A DNA stretch of 64,000 nt from Lachnospiraceae bacterium (GTDB lineage: Bacteria > Bacillota > Clostridia > Lachnospirales > Lachnospiraceae). A program made the translations under genes and the position numbers. The notes beneath the pieces are model-generated. The model made no database searches, was not told the origin of the DNA, and saw nothing but the letters and a program-made list of their open reading frames with translations. Shown here one piece after another: positions 1,091-14,050 of the stretch. Within the stretch, counting starts at the first letter, position 1. Each line of letters begins with the position of its first letter. The stretch spans positions 1,674,001 through 1,738,000 of the forward strand of contig AP025576.1 of assembly GCA_022845955.1 (NCBI GenBank), given 5' to 3'.

Positions 1091-2404
1091 ATGAGGGAAA
1101 ATAAGAGATACGGTTACGAAGAAGCGGTGGATTATGTGCTTCAGATTCCGAAATTTACGAAGAAAAATACGCCGGAGGATACCCGAAGGTTTTATGAATA
1201 TCTGGGAAGGCCCGGAGAGCGCTCCGGGCTTATCCATGTGGCAGGGACAAATGGAAAAGGGTCCGTCTGTTCTTATATCGATTCCGTGCTGGAGGAAGCC
1301 GGTTACCGCACGGGGCTGTTTACCTCTCCCCATCTGGTGGACGTAAGGGAACGGTTCCGGCTGAAGGGTGAAATGATATCCACAGAGGATTTTGCCCGGG
1401 TGTTTAATCAGGTGCTGGAAAATGTGGAAAACTTTTCTGAAAAATGCGGGAACGGTGTATATCATCCCACGTTTTTTGAAATGCTGTTTTTTATGGCGAT
1501 GCTATGGTTTCAGGAAAAACGGGCAGACTATATTATATTGGAAACCGGAATGGGCGGAAGGCTGGACGCCACCAATGTAATCGCCCATCCGTGTGTTACG
1601 GTGATTACCCGCATCGGTCTGGATCATACGGAATATCTGGGAAACAGTAAGGAAGAGATCGCCGGGGAAAAGGCGGGAATCATCAAAAAAGGCGTGCCTG
1701 TGGTGTTCTGGGAACAGGAGGAATCCGTGAACCGGGTCATTGTCGAAAAGGCGCGCGGCTTGTCGGCGGAAGTGATTCCTGTGTCAGAAAAACAAGTTAT
1801 TTTCTTTAAATTTAAGAATAAAACCGTTGATTTTTCCATGCGCTCTGAGTATTATGGATATATTAGGGCCAGCCTGCCGACGGCTGCTGTATACCAAAAA
1901 GAAAATGCAGCCCTGGCCATACGTGCCCTGGAGGTGCTGGGACGTACCTGTCCTTTGACCAGGCAGCAGGTGGAAGCCGGATTGTCCCATGCAAGATGGG
2001 AAGGCCGGATGGAAGAGGTCCTGCCGGGCGTCTTTATCGATGGTGCCCATAATGAAGACGGTGTGCAGGCTTTTCTGGACAGCGTCCGGGAGGACGGATG
2101 CCGGGGGAAAAGACACCTTTTGTTTTCCGCCGTTTCGGATAAACGGGTGGAGGCCATGGCCGGGCAGATCGCGGAAAGCGGCCTGTTCGATGATATTGCC
2201 GTAACCAGGATTGACAGCGCCAGGAGCCTGACGCAGGAGCAGCTCCTTTCCCTTTGGAAGGGAAAAAACCATGCCAGGCTTTATAACAGCCCGGAGGAAG
2301 CGTGGGAAGCGCTGCTGCGGGAAAAGGAAGGGCCTGATATCGTGTATGCCGCCGGTTCCCTGTATCTGGCAGGCCAGCTGAAGGCATACCTGAGTAAACT
2401 CTAA
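1091..2404 (+). CDS. folC: bifunctional folylpolyglutamate/dihydrofolate synthase
   Basis: Mur-ligase-type ATP-dependent enzyme that adds glutamate to folates (and to dihydropteroate in bifunctional forms) in the cytoplasm. The 437-aa length is normal for FolC. Visible motifs are the P-loop GTNGKGSV near residue 55, the TSPHL(V) folate-loop segment, LETGMGGRLDATN, and the C-terminal DGAHN motif of the Mur ligase fold. The ATG at 1091 follows a weak GGAAG site. It lies 157 bases after valS and is followed closely by a 51-aa gene and a TPR protein on the same strand, so co-transcription is likely. Confidence 0.95.
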   Translation: MRENKRYGYEEAVDYVLQIPKFTKKNTPEDTRRFYEYLGRPGERSGLIHVAGTNGKGSVCSYIDSVLEEAGYRTGLFTSPHLVDVRERFRLKGEMISTEDFARVFNQVLENVENFSEKCGNGVYHPTFFEMLFFMAMLWFQEKRADYIILETGMGGRLDATNVIAHPCVTVITRIGLDHTEYLGNSKEEIAGEKAGIIKKGVPVVFWEQEESVNRVIVEKARGLSAEVIPVSEKQVIFFKFKNKTVDFSMRSEYYGYIRASLPTAAVYQKENAALAIRALEVLGRTCPLTRQQVEAGLSHARWEGRMEEVLPGVFIDGAHNEDGVQAFLDSVREDGCRGKRHLLFSAVSDKRVEAMAGQIAESGLFDDIAVTRIDSARSLTQEQLLSLWKGKNHARLYNSPEEAWEALLREKEGPDIVYAAGSLYLAGQLKAYLSKL

Positions 2405-2440
2405 AACTGTGAACAGCCCGTAGTACAGGAGGACAGCAGT

Positions 2441-2596
2441 ATGATAGATTTTGAAGAAGAATTAAAAAAATTTCATCCCAGCCTTGAAGTAGACGAGGTG
2501 GAGGAAGCCATATACAACCACGATTTAACAGACCTGACGGATTTGCTGGTAGAGATAGAGAAGAGCAGAAAAGCAGATAAAAACAGACAGGAATAG
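2441..2596 (+). CDS. small acidic protein of unknown function (51 aa)
   Basis: A 51-residue ORF with a good ribosome binding site (CAGGAGGACAGC then ATG). It starts MIDFEEELKKFHPSLEVDE, is acidic in its first half and has a Lys/Arg-rich end (KSRKADKNRQE). No Cys, no membrane segment and no signal peptide are seen; it looks like two short helices. It sits 36 bases after folC and 12 bases before the zinc-ribbon/TPR gene, so it is probably translated from the same message. I do not recognise the family. The clear Shine-Dalgarno site and tight packing argue that it is real. Confidence 0.7.
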   Translation: MIDFEEELKKFHPSLEVDEVEEAIYNHDLTDLTDLLVEIEKSRKADKNRQE

Positions 2597-2608
2597 AGGA
2601 ACGCCGAT

Positions 2609-4018
2609 ATGAATTGTTATAATTGTGGTGTGGAGCTTACGGAGCACGATTTTTGTACGAATTGCGGTGCCGATGTGGTGCATTACAAAAAAGTCATCAG
2701 CGTTTCCAATTTTTATTATAATGATGGCCTGGAGAAAGCAAATGTACGGGATTTGTCAGGTGCAGTTGTCAGCCTGACGGAGTGTCTTAAGCTGAATAAA
2801 TTTAATATTGATGCGAGGAACCTGCTGGGGCTTGTCTATTTTGAAATGGGCGAAACCGTGGATGCCTTGAGTGAATGGGTGATAAGCAAGAACCTGAAGC
2901 CGGAAAAAAACATTGCCGATGCTTATATTGAGTCCGTGCAGAACAGCCCGAGCCAGCTGGAAAGCCTGAACCAGGCGATCAAGAAATTTAACCAGGCGCT
3001 TGTTTACTGCAGCCAGGGGAGCCTGGATCTGGCGCTGATACAGCTGCGCAAGGTACTTTCCGTCAATCCGAAGTTCCTGCGCGCCCACCAGCTCCTTGCC
3101 CTTCTGCATATGCATAATGAGGATTGGGAGAAGGCCAAACGCGAACTGGTAAAATGCAACAGGATTGATATCGGCAATACGCGCACCCATCGTTATATGA
3201 AGGAAGTGAATGCCGCCCTCAATGTGGATGACGGCCTGAAAAGCGGCCATAAGGCCACTAAAAATGAAGATGTGATCAAATACCAGAGCGGCAACGAAAC
3301 CATTATCCAGCCGCTGGCGGTAAAGGAGCCGGGAAAGAACTATACCGGCCTTCTGTACCTGCTGGGCGGTGTGGTAATCGGTCTCGCGGTGGCGCTTACC
3401 CTCATTCTCCCCGGAAGGCTGCAAAGCCTTAAAGCGCAGCTGAACGAAGAAAGCAGAAGCGTGGGAGAACAGCTGGATAAGAAAAATACGGAGCTTACGG
3501 ATATGCAGAAGCAGCTGGATGCCCTTACGGCAAAGAATGCGGATCTGAGTTCCGAACTGGAAGCCTATGCGGGAACCGACGGAACACTCCAGACAGTGGA
3601 AGATCTGCTGAATGCGGCTTATACCTATCTGGACACACCGGACGACATGGAAAAGATATCCCAGGCACTGGAAGGCATCGACAAGGACGCCATGGAATCC
3701 GATACCATTTCCCAGGCATACAAAAACCTGTATGACAAGCTTTTGGAAACGGCGGGGCCGGGGATCAGCAAAGCCTATGCGGACAGCGGAAACAAGGCTT
3801 ATAAAGCCGGAGATTACGATACCGCCATCCAGGATTTGGAAAAGGCCTTTTCCTATGATGAAACAAACGGGGATGCGCTCTATATCCTGGGGAATGCCTA
3901 TAAGAAAAAAGGAGACAGCAAGAACGCCGTTAAGATATATAACCAGATCATCGAGCTTTTCCCCAATACCGAAAAGGCCCGCCGGGCGAAGGATTATCTG
4001 AAGGAACTGGAGTCCTGA
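2609..4018 (+). CDS. zinc-ribbon, TPR-repeat single-pass membrane protein
   Basis: A 469-aa protein. It starts with a short zinc ribbon (CYNCG near residue 3 and CTNCG near residue 16), then TPR-like helical repeats (about 35-210), one membrane segment (about 247-270, GLLYLLGGVVIGLAVALTL), a coiled coil (about 272-320) and two or three more TPR units at the C-terminus (about 385-465). It has no cleavable signal, so the zinc ribbon and first TPR block are probably cytoplasmic and the C-terminal TPRs outside. TPR domains bind proteins, which suggests a scaffold or assembly factor for the envelope; the partner is unknown. A strong terminator follows. Confidence 0.75.
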   Translation: MNCYNCGVELTEHDFCTNCGADVVHYKKVISVSNFYYNDGLEKANVRDLSGAVVSLTECLKLNKFNIDARNLLGLVYFEMGETVDALSEWVISKNLKPEKNIADAYIESVQNSPSQLESLNQAIKKFNQALVYCSQGSLDLALIQLRKVLSVNPKFLRAHQLLALLHMHNEDWEKAKRELVKCNRIDIGNTRTHRYMKEVNAALNVDDGLKSGHKATKNEDVIKYQSGNETIIQPLAVKEPGKNYTGLLYLLGGVVIGLAVALTLILPGRLQSLKAQLNEESRSVGEQLDKKNTELTDMQKQLDALTAKNADLSSELEAYAGTDGTLQTVEDLLNAAYTYLDTPDDMEKISQALEGIDKDAMESDTISQAYKNLYDKLLETAGPGISKAYADSGNKAYKAGDYDTAIQDLEKAFSYDETNGDALYILGNAYKKKGDSKNAVKIYNQIIELFPNTEKARRAKDYLKELES

Positions 4019-6059: not shown

Positions 6060-6830
6060 ATGAAAAAATGGATAAGGATCATTATTCCTGTTTGCGCAGT
6101 AATGGTTCTTATAGTTGCCTGCATTAATCTGGGAAGTATTTTTATGGAATACAACAGAGGCGTGCAGGAATATAAGAATCTTCAGGAGTATGTAAAGGAG
6201 GAACATCCTCAGATTCCTGCCCGGCCGGAGGAAGAGGATGATTTTTTGGTGCCCGAAATTGATTTTGAGGCCCTGAAAGCGAGGAATGGGGATTTCAGGT
6301 ATTGGCTCTATATCCCGGCCCTGGAGGTGAACTACCCGGTAGTCCAGGGGGCGGATAATGAGATTTATCTGTACCGTACCTTTGAAGGGGAAACAAACAG
6401 TGCGGGCTGTATTTTCCTGGATGCGGGCAATTCCCCGGATCTGACGGATCGGAATACCGTGATATACGGCCATAATATGAAGAATCATTCCATGTTCGGC
6501 TCTCTTAAGGAATTCCTGCAGAATGAGGAACTGGCGGAAGAAAGTCCCTATTTCTACCTGTATACCGAGGAACGGGCAGTCCGCTACCGGATTGTTTCCT
6601 ACTACACAACAGTGAGCGGAAGCGATACATACCAGTCGGTTTATACGGATGAAGAATATGACGGCTATCTGAAAATGACACTTCAAAAATCCCAGTATAA
6701 GGGGTATCAGGAAGAATTTACAGAAGGCCGGCCGGATATGGTGACCCTTTCCACCTGCCACGGGAAAGCCGGGGGGACGGGAAGGTTCGTGGTGCACGGC
6801 GTTGTGGATGAGATACGGGAATGGGAGTAA
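6060..6830 (+). CDS. srtB: class B sortase
   Basis: Membrane-anchored cysteine transpeptidase of 256 aa that attaches surface proteins to the cell wall. Residues 5-27 form the N-terminal membrane anchor. The catalytic triad is visible as His138 (YGHNMKNHSMF), Cys233 (TLSTC) and Arg242 (TGRFVVHG). The spacing between Cys and Arg, with a Gly-rich HGKAGGTG loop, is of class B type. I chose the ATG at 6060, after AGAGGG, because it gives the anchor directly; the frame is open further upstream but without a good site. The next gene, 49 bases on, encodes a very large LPXTG-like protein and is the likely dedicated substrate. Confidence 0.92.
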   Translation: MKKWIRIIIPVCAVMVLIVACINLGSIFMEYNRGVQEYKNLQEYVKEEHPQIPARPEEEDDFLVPEIDFEALKARNGDFRYWLYIPALEVNYPVVQGADNEIYLYRTFEGETNSAGCIFLDAGNSPDLTDRNTVIYGHNMKNHSMFGSLKEFLQNEELAEESPYFYLYTEERAVRYRIVSYYTTVSGSDTYQSVYTDEEYDGYLKMTLQKSQYKGYQEEFTEGRPDMVTLSTCHGKAGGTGRFVVHGVVDEIREWE

Positions 6831-6879
6831 GGACGGCTTATGCCGCAGGCGTACAATCGGTACGCGGACTGGAGTTAGT

Positions 6880-9800
6880 ATGAAGAAAAAAATAGGGAAA
6901 ATCGTTGCCTTATTTATCGCCGCAGGTTTACTGGTAAATAGTTTTTTCCTGGCTGCCGCCCATGAGGGAGACAAGGGGGCAGAGGAAGGCGTACAGGAAA
7001 TACAGGAAAATGTACATACCCACAGTTGGGGAGAGGAAACGGTGGAGGAACCCGCTTCCTGCAGCCGGGAAGGTTCGGCAACTGTGAAATGTACCGGGTG
7101 TGATGCCACGGAAAGCCGTACCCTTGCTGCCACGGGAGCACACAGCTATGGGGACTGGACGGAGAAAACACCGGCCGCTGCGGATGCACCCGGAATGGAA
7201 AAACGTATCTGCAGCCAATGCGGCGCGGAAGAAACCCGGGAAATCCCCCGGCTGGAATCAGCCGGCGACGCTGAGCCTGGTACGGGCAGTGCAGGGACAG
7301 GAAATGCAGATGGCGGGACATCTTCCGGTGAAACCGGCAATCCGGATCAGAACACAGAAAACGGAACCGGAAATGAGGGAGCCGTGCACAACTGGTCCGC
7401 CGGGGAAAAAGTGGAGCCTACATGTACGGAGAATGGGAAACAGCATTATCTGTGCAGCGAAGAGAACTGTGGGGCCGTAAAGGATGAGGAAATTCCCTCC
7501 GCCGGTCATAAAGTGGATACCTGGACACTGGAAAAAGCCCCCACGCAGGAGGAAGCCGGAAGCGAGTACGGTACTTGTACGGTCTGCGGGGAAAAAGTTA
7601 CCCGTCCGGTTCCCGCAGGGAACCACAAGCATACCTTCAGTGATTCCGGAACCGTGGTGAACGCGGCATCGGAAACAAAAGACGGGAGTGTGGACTATTT
7701 TTGCACTTCGGATACCTGTGAAGCTTCTGAGGAAGGAATTTCCCATTATTATAAAGACAACGGGGCCGGAGAATTCCTGTGTGTCAACTGCAGCGCGAAG
7801 GAAAATCCGGAAGGTGACGATGCCTGTGCCCATGACTGGAAGGAGAAAGAAAACGGCCTGCAGGAATGCGGGAAATGCCATTCTTTAAAGAATACGGCGG
7901 CTGGGACAGTGCCCGGCAATACGGTTCCCGGGGAAGAAAATAATAACAGTCCGGAACAGGGGAGTCCGAATGCGGAATGCACCTGCGCAGTGAAATGTAC
8001 CGACGGAAAGAAAACGGAAACCTGTCTTTTCTGCAATACCGGGGATGCGGATTTGGACCAATGCAAGGGTAAGGAGTCTCCGGCATCCCAAGAGGGTACG
8101 GATACATGCAGCTGTACGGTCAAATGTACACCGGGAAGCATGAATGGGGAGTGCTCTGTCTGTAAAGCGGACGGTGCCACACCTGATACCTGTAAGGGAA
8201 ACCAAACAGAACCGGACAAAAAACCGGGAGCAGCCTGCAGCTGCGTGGCAAAATGTACGGATGGCGACAGCAATGTGAAATGCCCCGCCTGCAGTGCGGA
8301 CGGCGCTAACATAAATGAGGTCTGCCAGGGGAAGGAACTGTGCGGGGAAGGGAAGCATACCCGCCCTGCCACTTATGAGACGGTGAAAAAGGCCAGCTGT
8401 ACGGAGAACGGGGAAATACGCTACACTTGTTCCGTCTGCGGTACGCCGGTGACGCAAAAGATCCCCCCTACCGGGCATATATGGAACAGCAAAACCGGGA
8501 AATGCATCAGCTGCAAAACGGCCTGTCCCCATACCGAAAACGGGAACACAGCGTTTGATCCCGCTACGGGTAAATGTTCTGTCTGCGGATACCTGTGCGC
8601 GCATTCGTTCGATGAGGAGACCGGCGAATGCCGGATATGCGGCTTCAGGGAATGCGAAACCCATAAAAGGCCCTCCGGTGAGGGCGCCGTTATCCTTTCC
8701 GTGAAGGAAGCCACCTGCTCCGCCAAAGGGCTGGAGCGTTATCAGTGTGCAGTGTGCGGCACAGAGGTGACGGAGGAGACGGCAGTCGATCCCGATGTCC
8801 ATGACTGGAACAGGGAGACCGGAAAATGCAAGCTTTGTGATGAAAGCTGTACCCATGAGGACGGCGATGGAAATACCTTATACCGGACGGATGGAACATG
8901 CCTTGTCTGCGGCCGTGCCTGTGTGCATGAATTCAGGACTGTCACGGAGGAAGGCAAAGACGATAGTATCCAATGTGATATCTGCGGCTACATCTGTCCC
9001 CATGAGGAAAAAGCCCTTGTGCCCATCCAGGGAAAAGGGGATAAGGAGGCAGATTGTAAAAATGCCGGTCAGCAGACCTATCTGTGTTCCGTCTGCGGGA
9101 CGAATAGGGAAAAAGAACTTCCTCCCAGCGGAAAGCATGAGTATGATACGGCGGGGAGCTGCCTGGTGTGCGGGGATGACTTGTACACAGCAGCGTCCGG
9201 CGACTGCATTCATAAAGACAGCCGGTGGACGGTGTGGAAAAATGACGGAAGTGCGCTGGAGAAAGACAATCCCTGGAAATATGTCAAAACGGATATCGAC
9301 GGAAAGACGGACATTTTCCAGTGTGCCAGATGCGGTTCCGCCTGGGAACGGGAAGGCGCCGACAGAGAAGAAAAAACCGTGGATCTGATCCAGATCACCA
9401 AAGGAACGCTGGGAGTAACCATTTCCGTGAACGGCGTTGCCGTGGGAAATAACCAGGAAGTGAAGATCAACAAGACCGATGTGCTTGCTATCCATATAGA
9501 CTGGGCTATTGACAACGACAGAAAACCCAATGCGAATACCACCATACAATACCAGCTGCCTGTTATTTTGAAAGCAGTTCCGATGTCCGATACCATATGG
9601 GGAGCCGGCGGAACCGTGGAGTACGGCACCTATTCCATTGATGCCAACGGGCTTCTGACCTTCCGGCTGAATGATAATATCCTCAAAAAGAGCGAAATCA
9701 ACGGCTCCTTTGACCTGCAGGCAACCCTGATCCTGGATGAGGAAACCAGCCTGGATAAACAGGAAATCCTCTTCCCCGGCGGTGCGGGAATCGTTGTATA

Positions 9801-12705
9801 TTTCAAGAGCAATATGACCTGTAAAAAGGATGCGAAGCTGAACAACGACGGAAGCATTACTTACAAGATTACCTTTGAGCTGGATTCGGACTCCCGGAAA
9901 GTCAGCCTTACCGATACCCTGGGCAGCAATCTCAGCTTTGACGGTTACGAAGGCTCTTTCCGCCTGAAGGATACCGCAGCCGGCACGCAGACCGATATCA
10001 CGGATAAGGTGACGGTAAACGCGGAAAAGAACGAAGCCGTCATCGACCTGGGAGATGTGAAAAAAGGAAAATATGAAATCTCCTATATGGCGAAGCTCAT
10101 TGATGCTGCCGCCAATGCTTCGGGCGGCCGGAATACCAATACCGTCAGATGGAAATGGGACGGCAAGGAAGGCGGGCCTGTCAGCTGCAAGGTGACGGTG
10201 ACAGGCAAGCCCCTGTGGAAGAATTCCGCCGCGGCAACGGCGGCAGAAAAGGAACAGGGGATTTATCGTTGGGAGATTGTGATCAATAAGGATATGATAC
10301 CGGTTAATCTGTCCGAAAAAACGATTTATGACTGGTATGAAGTTTATAATGATTCCGCTCCTGACGACAATACCTGCATTTATGGCAATATCACTGTAAC
10401 GGATATCACCGATAACAAGGATATCACCAGCCAGCTAACGATAGAATCAAAAACCGAAGGCTCCGGCTGGGGACTGGAAAATAACGGATTATTCCGTATT
10501 AAATTCCCCTATGGAGACTATACCCATGTATATAAAATCAGTTACGCCACACAGACAAAAGCCACGGGAATGGACGGTGTTGACTGGGGATTCGTAAAGC
10601 TGCGGAACTGGGCAAAGATTATTGAAACCGGTGAAAATGACTATGAAGACGCCCTTGTGGGCAAAAAATATGGAACAGCGATTCTGACTAAAACAGGCAG
10701 GGCTTTGAGCAATGACACCTCCGGCAGCAACGAGGCTTACAAAGCGCAGTGGCAGGTAAAGCTGGATCTTACCCAGTTTAAAAATGCGGATGTGCTCAAG
10801 GATCTTGTCCTTACGGATACCTTACCGGACGGTATGAATTTCTATACCGCGGACGAATCCGAGGTGAATTTTGCGGTAACCCTTTCAAACGGCATATCTT
10901 TGACAGACGGAGAGGACTATCAGCGGGTAATAGACAGCGGCAGGAAAACGATGACCCTGACCTTTACGGAAGCGGGCTGGCGGAAGTGCGCGGGAAAACA
11001 AATCTTGCTGACCTTCAGCTCCGTGGCTGACAGCAGCAAGATCCCGGCAGGCGGAAGCCGGGATTATATCAATAAGGTAAAGGCGTCCTTCAGTTACAAC
11101 GGCAAGTGGAATTACGAAGCGCAGGCCAGGGTTACCATGTATAAAAGGGAAGCGCTGAACAAGAGCGGCGAAGTTTTGAAAACCAAGAATGCCAACGGTA
11201 ACTATGAAATCCTGTGGACCATCCTGGTCAATACCAACGACGCAGCGAATCTCACGCCGGAAAAAGTATACACCGGAGAGATTACAGTAACGGATGCCCT
11301 TCCCGGCGGCCTGGCTTATATTGACGGTTCCGCCCAGCTGACCACCTCCACGAGAACGGACTGGACGGTATCAAAATCCGGCCCTGCGGCAATTACTCCC
11401 GCACCGGAAGGGCTGCCCGGACAGCTGCAGTTTACCATACCGGATGCCACCTATGACAAGGCATATAAGATTACCTTTAAAACCGAAGTGGATCCCGCCA
11501 GTCTGGATAAAACAAACTATGGCACCACCTTTACCAACGAGGTGCTTGTAACGAATAAGGGAAATACCTCCCGGGCGGAAGCGTTTGTTACGATAGCGGA
11601 GGCTGATCTTCTTAAAAAGGGAGGCCAGACCACAGGAACCCACATCCTTTATACCATTGATGTGAATACCAATGCCCAGCAGCTGACATCCCGGGGCTAC
11701 CTGACGCTGGAGGATGAGATAGACAGCAACGCGGAAATCCTGGTAAATACCATATCCGTTACCACCATCGACAACGTGTCCCAGGTACAGACGGATATTA
11801 CCGCTTCCTGCAGTCTGAGCTATTCCGGCAGCAGGCTGCTAATCGGCAATATACCTGACGGAAAGCATGTGAGAATCACATATAAAGCCGTAACGGTAAG
11901 AACCGGGGATGTGTCTGTGACCAACAGCGCGATCCTGAAAGGAGAGCAGGAGCTGGCAGCCACGAGTGTATCAGGAAGCTTCCGGATTAAGGCAGGCGCT
12001 ACCGCAAGCGGCCGGGCCGGAACCTTTAACCTGATAAAATATGACAGAAGCGATGCCCGAAGGACGTTATCGGGTGCGGAATTCACACTTTATAAATTTA
12101 ATATGGATGCTATAGATACGACACCCAGGGAGGCAGGCACCCTGGCCACAGATGAGGACGGCCGGATTACCTTTGGGGAAGGCACCATGGAAGAACTGGA
12201 ATTCGATGTGCTGTACTGTTATGTGGAGACTAAAGCTCCGGCAGGCTACCTCCTGGATAATACACCTCACTATTTCATGCTGGAAGGAAACAGCTTCCAA
12301 GCCCGCAACCAGCTGGCATTGGGCAGAATAGGGGAGGGAGCGGATTACAGGACTTATACCGAGGATGGATCCAAGACCAGACAGCTGTATAATGATCCTT
12401 ATACACCGCCCACACCGCCTCCCGCACCGGAGGATCCGGGGACTCCCGATGAACCCGGCACCATCACTGTCACGACTACAACGACGGTACCCCCTGCAAC
12501 GGGAGTGACCCCCAAGGTTGCTGTCCTGGGAGAAAGCAAGATGCCTGACGGCGCCATGCCGGCAGCGCCCACAGTAGGAGTCCTGGGGGAAATGAAGGGA
12601 CCGGGAACAGGAGATAAGGCCCCTGTCATCATCTGGACACTCCTGATTTCCACAGCGATGGCTGTACTCATTTCCTGTGCCGCATTCAGAAGAAAACGCA
12701 GATAA
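6880..12705 (+). CDS. giant Cys-rich, sortase-anchored surface protein with isopeptide-type domains
   Basis: A 1941-aa protein. Signal peptide at residues 1-28 (KKKIGKIVALFIAAGLLVN). Residues about 65-825 hold many short modules of the form H-x-W...C-x-x-C-G, with at least 19 CxxC pairs plus longer Cys spacings (CTCAVKC, CSCTVKC). Residues about 830-1700 look like repeated beta-sandwich units of DUF11/isopeptide-forming type (VTDTL or LTDTLP, then VTNSAI-like ends). Residues about 1710-1815 form a SpaA/Cna-B prealbumin-like domain ending in ETKAPAGYLLD. A Pro/Thr-rich stalk follows, then the sorting signal GPGTGD (about 1907), a hydrophobic segment and RRKRR. It is probably wall-linked by the adjacent sortase B. 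The Cys modules may bind zinc or form disulfides; that is inference. The start follows GGAG. Confidence 0.85.
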   Translation: MKKKIGKIVALFIAAGLLVNSFFLAAAHEGDKGAEEGVQEIQENVHTHSWGEETVEEPASCSREGSATVKCTGCDATESRTLAATGAHSYGDWTEKTPAAADAPGMEKRICSQCGAEETREIPRLESAGDAEPGTGSAGTGNADGGTSSGETGNPDQNTENGTGNEGAVHNWSAGEKVEPTCTENGKQHYLCSEENCGAVKDEEIPSAGHKVDTWTLEKAPTQEEAGSEYGTCTVCGEKVTRPVPAGNHKHTFSDSGTVVNAASETKDGSVDYFCTSDTCEASEEGISHYYKDNGAGEFLCVNCSAKENPEGDDACAHDWKEKENGLQECGKCHSLKNTAAGTVPGNTVPGEENNNSPEQGSPNAECTCAVKCTDGKKTETCLFCNTGDADLDQCKGKESPASQEGTDTCSCTVKCTPGSMNGECSVCKADGATPDTCKGNQTEPDKKPGAACSCVAKCTDGDSNVKCPACSADGANINEVCQGKELCGEGKHTRPATYETVKKASCTENGEIRYTCSVCGTPVTQKIPPTGHIWNSKTGKCISCKTACPHTENGNTAFDPATGKCSVCGYLCAHSFDEETGECRICGFRECETHKRPSGEGAVILSVKEATCSAKGLERYQCAVCGTEVTEETAVDPDVHDWNRETGKCKLCDESCTHEDGDGNTLYRTDGTCLVCGRACVHEFRTVTEEGKDDSIQCDICGYICPHEEKALVPIQGKGDKEADCKNAGQQTYLCSVCGTNREKELPPSGKHEYDTAGSCLVCGDDLYTAASGDCIHKDSRWTVWKNDGSALEKDNPWKYVKTDIDGKTDIFQCARCGSAWEREGADREEKTVDLIQITKGTLGVTISVNGVAVGNNQEVKINKTDVLAIHIDWAIDNDRKPNANTTIQYQLPVILKAVPMSDTIWGAGGTVEYGTYSIDANGLLTFRLNDNILKKSEINGSFDLQATLILDEETSLDKQEILFPGGAGIVVYFKSNMTCKKDAKLNNDGSITYKITFELDSDSRKVSLTDTLGSNLSFDGYEGSFRLKDTAAGTQTDITDKVTVNAEKNEAVIDLGDVKKGKYEISYMAKLIDAAANASGGRNTNTVRWKWDGKEGGPVSCKVTVTGKPLWKNSAAATAAEKEQGIYRWEIVINKDMIPVNLSEKTIYDWYEVYNDSAPDDNTCIYGNITVTDITDNKDITSQLTIESKTEGSGWGLENNGLFRIKFPYGDYTHVYKISYATQTKATGMDGVDWGFVKLRNWAKIIETGENDYEDALVGKKYGTAILTKTGRALSNDTSGSNEAYKAQWQVKLDLTQFKNADVLKDLVLTDTLPDGMNFYTADESEVNFAVTLSNGISLTDGEDYQRVIDSGRKTMTLTFTEAGWRKCAGKQILLTFSSVADSSKIPAGGSRDYINKVKASFSYNGKWNYEAQARVTMYKREALNKSGEVLKTKNANGNYEILWTILVNTNDAANLTPEKVYTGEITVTDALPGGLAYIDGSAQLTTSTRTDWTVSKSGPAAITPAPEGLPGQLQFTIPDATYDKAYKITFKTEVDPASLDKTNYGTTFTNEVLVTNKGNTSRAEAFVTIAEADLLKKGGQTTGTHILYTIDVNTNAQQLTSRGYLTLEDEIDSNAEILVNTISVTTIDNVSQVQTDITASCSLSYSGSRLLIGNIPDGKHVRITYKAVTVRTGDVSVTNSAILKGEQELAATSVSGSFRIKAGATASGRAGTFNLIKYDRSDARRTLSGAEFTLYKFNMDAIDTTPREAGTLATDEDGRITFGEGTMEELEFDVLYCYVETKAPAGYLLDNTPHYFMLEGNSFQARNQLALGRIGEGADYRTYTEDGSKTRQLYNDPYTPPTPPPAPEDPGTPDEPGTITVTTTTTVPPATGVTPKVAVLGESKMPDGAMPAAPTVGVLGEMKGPGTGDKAPVIIWTLLISTAMAVLISCAAFRRKRR

Positions 12706-12985: not shown

Positions 12986-13014
12986 TTGCTTTTTAAACGC
13001 GTATGGTGTAGTAT
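12986..13014 (+). promoter_or_regulatory. sigma-A-type promoter upstream of the tandem riboswitches
   Basis: TTGCTT, 17-base spacer, TAGTAT. It lies about 65 bases before the first riboswitch and in AT-rich DNA, so the leader would be about 440 bases long before the CAP gene. Confidence 0.55.
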
Positions 13015-13080
13015 AAAGCTAACGAAAGAAATCATCATACATCAAACAATCATCATATTATTAATTTATTTTAATTTAAC

Positions 13081-13158
13081 ACTTGGCAAACTTGCTGAAA
13101 GGCAAGGACGCAAAGCTATAGGGCCTTCCCTCATAAAGAGGATGGTAGCCAGTTGCCT
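13081..13158 (+). ncRNA. cyclic di-GMP-I (GEMM-I) riboswitch, first copy
   Basis: Matches the c-di-GMP-I aptamer consensus by eye: GGCAAAC, a P2 stem (CTTGC / GCAAG) capped by a TGAAAG GNRA-type loop, GGACGCAAAGC, then AGGGCCT, a CCCTC / GAGG stem (P3), ATGGTAGCC and a closing GTTGCC. GGACGCAAAGC and GGTAGCC are the ligand-pocket and receptor signatures. An intrinsic terminator follows at 13191-13228. Confidence 0.93.
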
Positions 13159-13190
13159 GATACATAGTAAAAACGTATGTATTTGCACAG

Positions 13191-13228
13191 TAGCCTTGGT
13201 CGCCGTATGACACAAGACTATTTTTTTT
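13191..13228 (+). terminator. intrinsic terminator after riboswitch 1
   Basis: TAGCCTTGGTC pairs with GACACAAGACTA (one mismatch, one bulge) and is followed by eight T. This is the likely expression platform of the first c-di-GMP aptamer. Confidence 0.75.
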
Positions 13229-13269
13229 ACTTATCAGGCCTTTGAACTGAAAAAGGCGTGAAAACTACA

Positions 13270-13344
13270 TTTGGCAAACTTATTGAAAAGTAAGGACGCA
13301 AAGCTACAGGGCCTTCCCTTTAAAAAGGATGGCAGCCAGCTGCC
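13270..13344 (+). ncRNA. cyclic di-GMP-I (GEMM-I) riboswitch, second copy
   Basis: A second aptamer of the same class: TTGGCAAACTTA, TGAAAAG loop, GGACGCAAAGC, ACAGGGCCT, a short P3 stem, ATGGCAGCC and CTGCC closing P1. It resembles the first copy closely over the core but differs in the stems, with compensating changes (CTTGC/GCAAG versus CTTA/TAAG), as expected for a functional duplicate. Confidence 0.92.
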
Positions 13345-13345
13345 G

Positions 13346-13420
13346 GTACCATATGGTACTGTATTGATAGCCGAAAGGCTCTCACTACTTTTAAATAATC
13401 GAAAAGCCTTAGTAGTTTTC
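13346..13420 (+). promoter_or_regulatory. candidate expression platform of riboswitch 2 with competing hairpins
   Basis: A perfect palindrome GTACCATATGGTAC (13346-13359) is followed by segments that pair in alternative ways. AGCC (13369) pairs with GGCT (13377). AAGGCT (13375) pairs with AGCCTT (13405). ACTACT (13384) pairs with AGTAGT (13411), which is followed by TTTTC. The last two cross each other, so they are mutually exclusive as simple hairpins. Confidence 0.55.
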
Positions 13421-13461
13421 CATCATTTTTCAATCGACACGATTTGAAAGGATGAAGGAAA

Positions 13462-13971
13462 ATGAAGAAAGCAATCATCACCGTATTAGCGGTATTAACA
13501 ATCATCGTAACAGCAATGGCACCCGCAGCAAAAATGGATGCAAAAGCAGCAACAGACCAGACCTCTACCATGAATGCAAGACTTCTGGCAGATATCAATA
13601 ACTTAAGAGCAGAGCAGGGACTTCCCGCACTGACACTTGACAGTGAATTAACCAGTTATGCAGCAGTAAGAAGCGAAGAAATTACCACAGTTTGGAGTCA
13701 CACCCGTCCCAATGGAACAAGCGGTGCTGATATGATTAGCTCCAACAAATGGCGCGGCGAGAACCTTTCCTACATTACATACGGAAGCTTCGGATTTTCC
13801 GATTCCGAACAGAACGGCGCAGCAGACAGCGTTTTCGCAAGCCTGAAGGCAAGCCCTTCACACTATAGCAACATGGTAAGCGGCAACTACACAAAAATTG
13901 GTATTTATACATATGTAACCAATACCGATTCCGGAATCAAACTTTCCACCGCTTATATGTTCTCTAACTAA
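13462..13971 (+). CDS. secreted CAP/SCP-domain protein under c-di-GMP riboswitch control
   Basis: A 169-aa protein with a Sec signal peptide (residues 1-31, MKKAIITVLAVLTIIVTAMAP, cleavage near DAKAA). The rest is one CAP (SCP/PR-1) domain: NNLRAEQGLPAL, SHTRPNG with the first conserved His, GENLSY with the conserved Glu, and SPSHYSNMV with the second His. Bacterial CAP proteins are extracellular and of uncertain activity. The start follows GAAAGGATGAAGG. Codons are more A/T-ending than in the neighbours, which may mean high expression or recent transfer. Two tandem c-di-GMP-I riboswitches in the leader link it to the biofilm/motility second messenger. Confidence 0.93.
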   Translation: MKKAIITVLAVLTIIVTAMAPAAKMDAKAATDQTSTMNARLLADINNLRAEQGLPALTLDSELTSYAAVRSEEITTVWSHTRPNGTSGADMISSNKWRGENLSYITYGSFGFSDSEQNGAADSVFASLKASPSHYSNMVSGNYTKIGIYTYVTNTDSGIKLSTAYMFSN

Positions 13972-14050
13972 GAAAATCCCTTAATTTTGATAGATGATAT
14001 GATGATGATTGGAAAAACGGCAGTTTGATCAACTACTGTTTTTTCATGTC

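Follow-up and report, generated by a model that had tools for sequence, protein, structure and literature searches.

A tandem c-di-GMP-I riboswitch that is real and conserved precedes the gene of a CAP-domain exoprotein in the analysed stretch of DNA, 64,000 nucleotides of an Eisenbergiella genome (hereafter, the window). An Rfam covariance search of the whole window returned two class-I c-di-GMP aptamers over the cut-off, and these were all of its matches (Table 1). Both lie in one leader on the same strand, with 102 bases from the first to the second, as two complete GEMM-I aptamers had been proposed in an earlier note on this DNA. The tandem within the extent given there (13081-13420) was real; the feature itself continues past that end, to the hairpin at the ribosome binding site (13416-13464). 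Each copy matched the c-di-GMP-I (GEMM-I) family RF01051 over its full length, with the same conserved core, and no difference from the family was noticed in the aptamers; the platforms behind them were specific to this locus. The ligand-contacting letters were intact in both covariance alignments, where position 11 of the model is G and position 83 is C. These positions probably correspond to G20 and C92 of the Vc2 structure, which stand for c-di-GMP rather than cGAMP. Since the two aptamers carry the same ligand-contacting letters, both should read c-di-GMP, and the two-input response suggested earlier does not apply. Thus, these elements are c-di-GMP-I riboswitch aptamers, with predicted binding of c-di-GMP. 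It is extremely improbable that they resemble aptamers by chance or are non-functional, decayed remnants, as both scored about twice the gathering score of 35, with E values near 1e-11, and both recur in related species.

Table 1. Features of the tandem riboswitch and CAP locus (positions in the window).
Feature	Position	Strand	Evidence
Likely promoter, TTGCTT + 17 nt + TAGTAT	12986-13014	+	By eye; similar stretch in E. tayi and E. porci; absent from the list of the consensus scan
c-di-GMP-I aptamer 1	13075-13160	+	RF01051, model 1-87 complete, 69.2 bits, E 1.7e-11
Aptamer-1 core GACGCAAAGCTAT	13107-13119	+	Would pair with the 5' arm of terminator 1 in a predicted anti-terminator
Terminator 1	13189-13228	+	Arms 13189-13202 and 13208-13222; T8 13221-13228; folds at -10 kcal/mol (mean of shuffles -4.5), z -2.8
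TATCAGGC, complementary over 8 bp to the 3' end of aptamer 1, GCCTGATA (13155-13162)	13232-13239	+	Pairs in three loci, with one G-U in E. tayi L005
c-di-GMP-I aptamer 2	13263-13347	+	RF01051, model 1-87 complete, 70.9 bits, E 6.8e-12
Hairpin H2, platform 2	13366-13383	+	z -3.9; stem GCC.GGC in the window, GTC.GAC in E. tayi L005, ATC.GAT in E. porci L003
Hairpin H3, ACTACT/AGTAGT	13384-13419	+	Letters kept in three loci; alone z -0.4, 64/200 shuffles as good
Hairpin enclosing the ribosome binding site as far as the start codon	13416-13464	+	z -3.5
CAP-domain exoprotein gene, 169 aa	13462-13971	+	PF00188, 1e-13; hydrophobic, signal-peptide-like N-terminus (by eye)
Terminator-like hairpin 3' of the CAP gene	14016-14044	+	-4.6 kcal/mol, then T6; z -1.8, 15/200 shuffles as good

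Elsewhere in the 7.29-Mb genome from which the window comes, RF01051 was found at no further place among the first-look candidates scored (150 of 586). A search of the same genome for class-II c-di-GMP riboswitches gave no match, but control genomes were equally silent, so this result does not show absence. GGDEF domains gave 43 matches, of which 40 exceeded the cut-off, with some open frames holding two. The presence of 40 such matches beside just two class-I aptamers found, both before the CAP gene, points to CAP as a gene that c-di-GMP would reach directly through RNA.

The locus recurred within the genus. Searching genome contigs with the CAP protein yielded three loci, one in E. porci (L003) and two in E. 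tayi DSM 26961 (L004 and L005). The aptamer pair was present at L003 and L005; L004 has one aptamer, in a sequence that is incomplete from that aptamer to the gene. By genus scan, a class-I match occurred in 6 of 13 genomes. When the window was aligned with L005 and L003, variable columns numbered 25/56 in the 5' leader, 12/86 in aptamer 1, 10/70 in platform 1, 4/35 in the linker, 4/85 in aptamer 2, 20/66 in platform 2, 0/51 in the ribosome-site hairpin (13414-13464) and 95/507 in the coding sequence. Identity among the three loci was 86-91% for aptamers 1 and 96-99% for aptamers 2, compared with 78-85% between aptamer 1 and aptamer 2. Each aptamer is therefore closest to its counterparts at the same position in the other loci, which suggests that the doubling probably predates the split of these species. 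An aptamer tree had good support at 2 of its 23 inner branches and cannot settle how often doubling arose.

Other places in the genus were also recorded. E. tayi holds a second copy of the unit at another site (L005, about 1995-3048), reaching from the promoter-like region to slightly beyond the gene and encoding a protein that was identical by eye. The counterpart of that site in the window's own genome (contig C1, 3758295-3758446) is without the unit, and so is that of E. porci. The Eisenbergiella genome G309 has two further single c-di-GMP-I aptamers (L051 and L052) before other genes; no places like these were found among the 150 of 586 candidates scored in the own-genome search.

The product of the downstream gene exceeded the Pfam gathering score for the CAP domain (52.6 bits; cut-off 21.1) and contains HTRP, GEN and SH motifs as judged by eye, as in bacterial CAP proteins of PF00188. 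It fell far short of the curated cut-off of the YkwD family TIGR02909 (42.5 against 171 bits), and no solved structure matched its sequence at an E value of 0.001. Behind the gene lies a hairpin with a T run, whose stem was fully paired in L003 and nearly so in L004 by eye, and which is not on the list of the terminator scan; spoVAA and spoVAB are the next genes beyond it. Given this hairpin, which probably ends the unit, and these neighbors, the transcript most likely carries no gene other than CAP, which supports the small CAP exoprotein named as sole downstream gene in the earlier note.

Several features of the surroundings were noted in passing. Upstream of the tandem and CAP unit, an open reading frame of 1967 aa with SpaA and Big_8 matches occupies positions 6802-12705 of the window. 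Directly 5' of the CAP unit, L003 and L004 have a gene that looked sortase-like by eye (1030-1806 and 1390-2166, respectively), which is not listed at this spot of the window. Part of the 5' leader (13048-13071) is complementary to the CAP 3' untranslated region (13989-14012). This applied to the window, to L003 and to L004 (z about -3, p 0.005-0.010), but not to L005, the E. tayi copy at the other site (p 0.80). The own genome has another CAP place, whose inspection gave no lead.

The hairpin with eight T residues that had been read behind aptamer 1 proved to be better than shuffled sequences and conserved. It was kept in L005 and in L003, where one pair was changed on both sides. Its 3' arm, GACACAAGACTAT, resembles the aptamer-1 core GACGCAAAGCTAT. 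Folds were made with the aptamer free or held in its bound form. When aptamer 1 was held, the occupancy of the inner four pairs of the terminator went from 0.23 to 0.99 in the window and from 0.77 to 0.99 in E. tayi, and stood at 0.99 in both states in E. porci. Folds of the whole leader gave corresponding values of 0.47 and 1.00 in the window and 0.53 and 0.98 in E. tayi. The outer four pairs also rose in the window and E. tayi, but in E. porci they fell from 0.91-0.97 to 0.66-0.91. Before most of the 3' arm had been made, the predicted anti-terminator between the core and the 5' arm was occupied at 0.81-0.98 in the window and 0.93-0.99 in E. tayi with the aptamer free, and at 0 with it held; in E. 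porci it reached only 0.02-0.44 during transcription. At full length with a shorter 5' context, the terminator won even with the aptamer free (0.90 in the window, 0.93 in E. tayi, 0.99 in E. porci), which would require a kinetic mode of action of the anti-terminator. The complementarity between core and platform was not significant against shuffled platforms in 6 of 6 tests (p 0.06-0.12), and the anti-terminator therefore remains a prediction. Collectively, folding favors an OFF effect of the ligand at terminator 1 with moderate confidence, clearly in the window, less so in E. tayi and not in E. porci.

These observations can be arranged in a model of two c-di-GMP-I riboswitches in series on one mRNA, in which high c-di-GMP would give low CAP through a steeper response than that of one switch; we consider the chances of this model to be about even. 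In the absence of ligand, the terminator-1 5' arm (TAGC.CTTG.GTC) would fold back onto the core of aptamer 1 (GAC.CAA.GCTA), allowing read-through. With c-di-GMP bound, the core would be locked, the 5' arm would pair with the core-like 3' arm, and transcription would stop. A second such decision, closer to the gene, may be made by aptamer 2 through a switch from a helix between its core and GCCTTAGTAGTTTT to ACTACT/AGTAGT, on an mRNA that most likely encodes the CAP exoprotein alone. By analogy with described tandems, the steeper response is plausible. The OFF reading is rated no higher because holding the aptamer weakens the outer terminator in E. porci. Also counting against the OFF direction are the E. 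porci terminator, which stood at 0.99 without ligand, and the triple tandem of Bacillus thuringiensis, an ON switch according to PMC4759541.

The opposite direction, in which c-di-GMP prevents termination or opens the message and CAP is made at high c-di-GMP, is possible but doubtful. It would agree with the characterised triple tandem just cited, and with an E. porci terminator that is fully formed without ligand and loses strength in its outer four pairs when the aptamer is held. Downstream there is also the conserved segment TATCAGGC, which is complementary over 8 bp to the 3' end of aptamer 1 (GCCTGATA). However, this complement sits after the T run, where its predicted occupancy was only 0-0.07. 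Further, the inner stem of terminator 1 was not lowered by held aptamer 1 in any fold made, and the whole stem was raised in the window and E. tayi.

The second platform, for which the earlier note had proposed two crossing hairpins, was less clear. All four sets of letters were located (AAGGCT at 13375, AGCCTT at 13405, ACTACT at 13384 and AGTAGT at 13411), and ACTACT/AGTAGT was conserved, yet as a hairpin (H3) it was no better than shuffles. The AAGGCT/AGCCTT hairpin was not conserved and was rejected, with, by eye, 4 of 6 pairs left in E. tayi L005 and about 3 of 6 in E. porci L003; AAGGCT belongs instead to another hairpin, H2, which carries compensatory changes. The segment GCCTTAGTAGTTTT (13406-13419) can pair either with the aptamer-2 core AAAGCTACAGGGC (13300-13312) or, in part, with ACTACT. 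Holding both aptamers in the whole leader raised H3 from 0.00 to 0.36 in the window, from 0.04 to 0.83 in E. tayi and from 0.14 to 0.90 in E. porci. In shorter constructs of the window with aptamer 2 held, H3 stayed at 0.00 in one set of folds and at 0.00-0.19 in another. The helix between core 2 and GCCTTAGTAGTTTT was weak in E. tayi and E. porci, at 0.00-0.41 when free and 0.01-0.05 in the whole leader. Overall, the exchange of H3 and this helix with ligand state was uneven between folds.

Such results bear on whether riboswitch 1 regulates alone, aptamer 2 being a duplicate without a working platform or a ligand sink, which we judge to be unlikely. Consistent with that account, H3 did not surpass shuffles, the terminator scan listed no terminator behind aptamer 2, and accessibility of the ribosome site was constant across ligand states. 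Aptamer 2 is nevertheless the better conserved of the two copies (4 against 12 variable columns), and it is followed by H2 with its compensatory changes, both of which count against this account.

The least variable stretch of the locus was the hairpin at the ribosome binding site. In the own genome, it gave one full match and a partial match of 27 nt. Opening of the site by ligand was not seen, since the site was unpaired at 0.16 in 4 of 4 modelled ligand states. This hairpin could be a separate control, responding to a protein, a small RNA or temperature, with the riboswitches only setting the amount of full-length message. We regard this possibility as rather unlikely; it is compatible with the preferred model of riboswitches in series. 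The invariance of the hairpin beside a coding sequence that varies, its closure in every ligand state modelled and its fold relative to shuffles are in keeping with separate control, but the invariance was seen in three related loci, which are few.

To our knowledge, the targets of tandem c-di-GMP-I riboswitches in gut Clostridia have been little studied. Genes behind aptamers were surveyed in Lachnospiraceae, where the search, at nearly one genome per genus, found a match in 110 of 299 genomes. The survey set comprised 109 aptamer units, drawn from the family search among the matches listed and from the genus search, with the window excluded; the single-aptamer places in it are part of those found. 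Tandems were chosen by coordinates, blind to the gene, and the first open reading frame was taken mechanically. L007 was counted as single, there being one match in that genome; L066 has two aptamers too far apart for a tandem, one of which was left out of the 91 singles; and three singles with a mostly unreadable first open reading frame were counted as without CAP. A CAP protein followed 10 of the 109 units, namely three in Eisenbergiella (L050, L053 and L054, which are L005, L004 and L003, respectively) and seven elsewhere. Because the hits had themselves served to build the CAP profile used here, independent support comes from a phmmer search with the protein of the window, which gave E values of 2e-50 for L121, 2e-17 to 1e-14 for L064 and L063, 2e-9 to 3e-9 for L060 and L065, 2e-5 for L099 and 2e-4 for L032. 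Two of the CAP places (in G082 and G261) were also among the Pfam CAP matches listed.

With the 10 Eisenbergiella units removed, CAP followed 4 of 8 tandem units (L060, L063, L064 and L065) compared with 3 of 91 singles (p 0.0006 in a Fisher test on these counts, entered by hand). L063 and L064 lie in one genome and are likely paralogues; counted by genome, 3 of 6 with tandems had the pairing. CAP genes are rare in the family (277 matches, spread over 181 of 299 genomes), so 7 of 99 units lies far above their share, by roughly two-hundredfold if a genome is assumed to hold about 2800 genes. The protein at L121, the closest relative of the window protein found beyond Eisenbergiella, is encoded behind a single aptamer, which argues against a strict need for two.

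In the class listing for Clostridia, 166 of 391 genomes had a match. From this wider range, a second sample took the 10 further tandems among the matches listed, together with 10 apparent singles chosen by hand; there was no usable open reading frame for tandem L138 and single L154. CAP followed 1 of the 10 tandems (L139) and none of the 10 singles. Thus, with 4 of 8 tandems in one set and 1 of 10 in the other, the link to CAP is clear in Lachnospiraceae and weak in the sample outside.

The window tandem belongs to a known kind, as PMC9481103 counts 347 doublets and 12 triplets among c-di-GMP-I riboswitches. Like the published tandems described there and in PMC4759541, it has two complete aptamers per leader, with a terminator between them, and would be expected to give a more digital response, as was reported for the B. 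thuringiensis triple tandem Bc3-5. It differs from them in serving a CAP exoprotein gene, in its predicted OFF rather than ON direction, and in a second platform that is not a clear terminator. Tandem class-I riboswitches before a single gene are also described for transglutaminase-like genes of Bacillota (yebA, COG1305; PMC12452182, in the part accessible), where the protein family is another one; the account of tandems given in that part does not name CAP proteins. Two tested tandems of the second sample (L145 and L147) likewise precede transglutaminase-like (Transglut_core) genes. No CAP link of c-di-GMP-I riboswitches was found in literature searches that covered a minority of subscription journals. 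These also gave no paper on riboswitches in Eisenbergiella or on c-di-GMP-I riboswitches in Lachnospiraceae.

The sensor and its doubling are therefore already known; what may be new as a lead is their repeated association with CAP genes. We put forward tentatively, as somewhat less than an even chance, that in Clostridia tandem c-di-GMP-I riboswitches have come to act on secreted CAP proteins repeatedly, perhaps by convergence, and that this Eisenbergiella genome would spend its class-I read-out on one CAP protein through two stages, termination at aptamer 1 and aptamer 2 near the invariant ribosome-site hairpin. The pairing in other genera offers a testable lead on the role of bacterial CAP exoproteins. 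A different arrangement was observed in the second tandem of the Lachnospiraceae genome G082 (L061), which combines an ordinary c-di-GMP-I aptamer with a variant c-di-GMP-I-GGC aptamer (RF03167) and precedes a long open reading frame with a hydrophobic N-terminal stretch.
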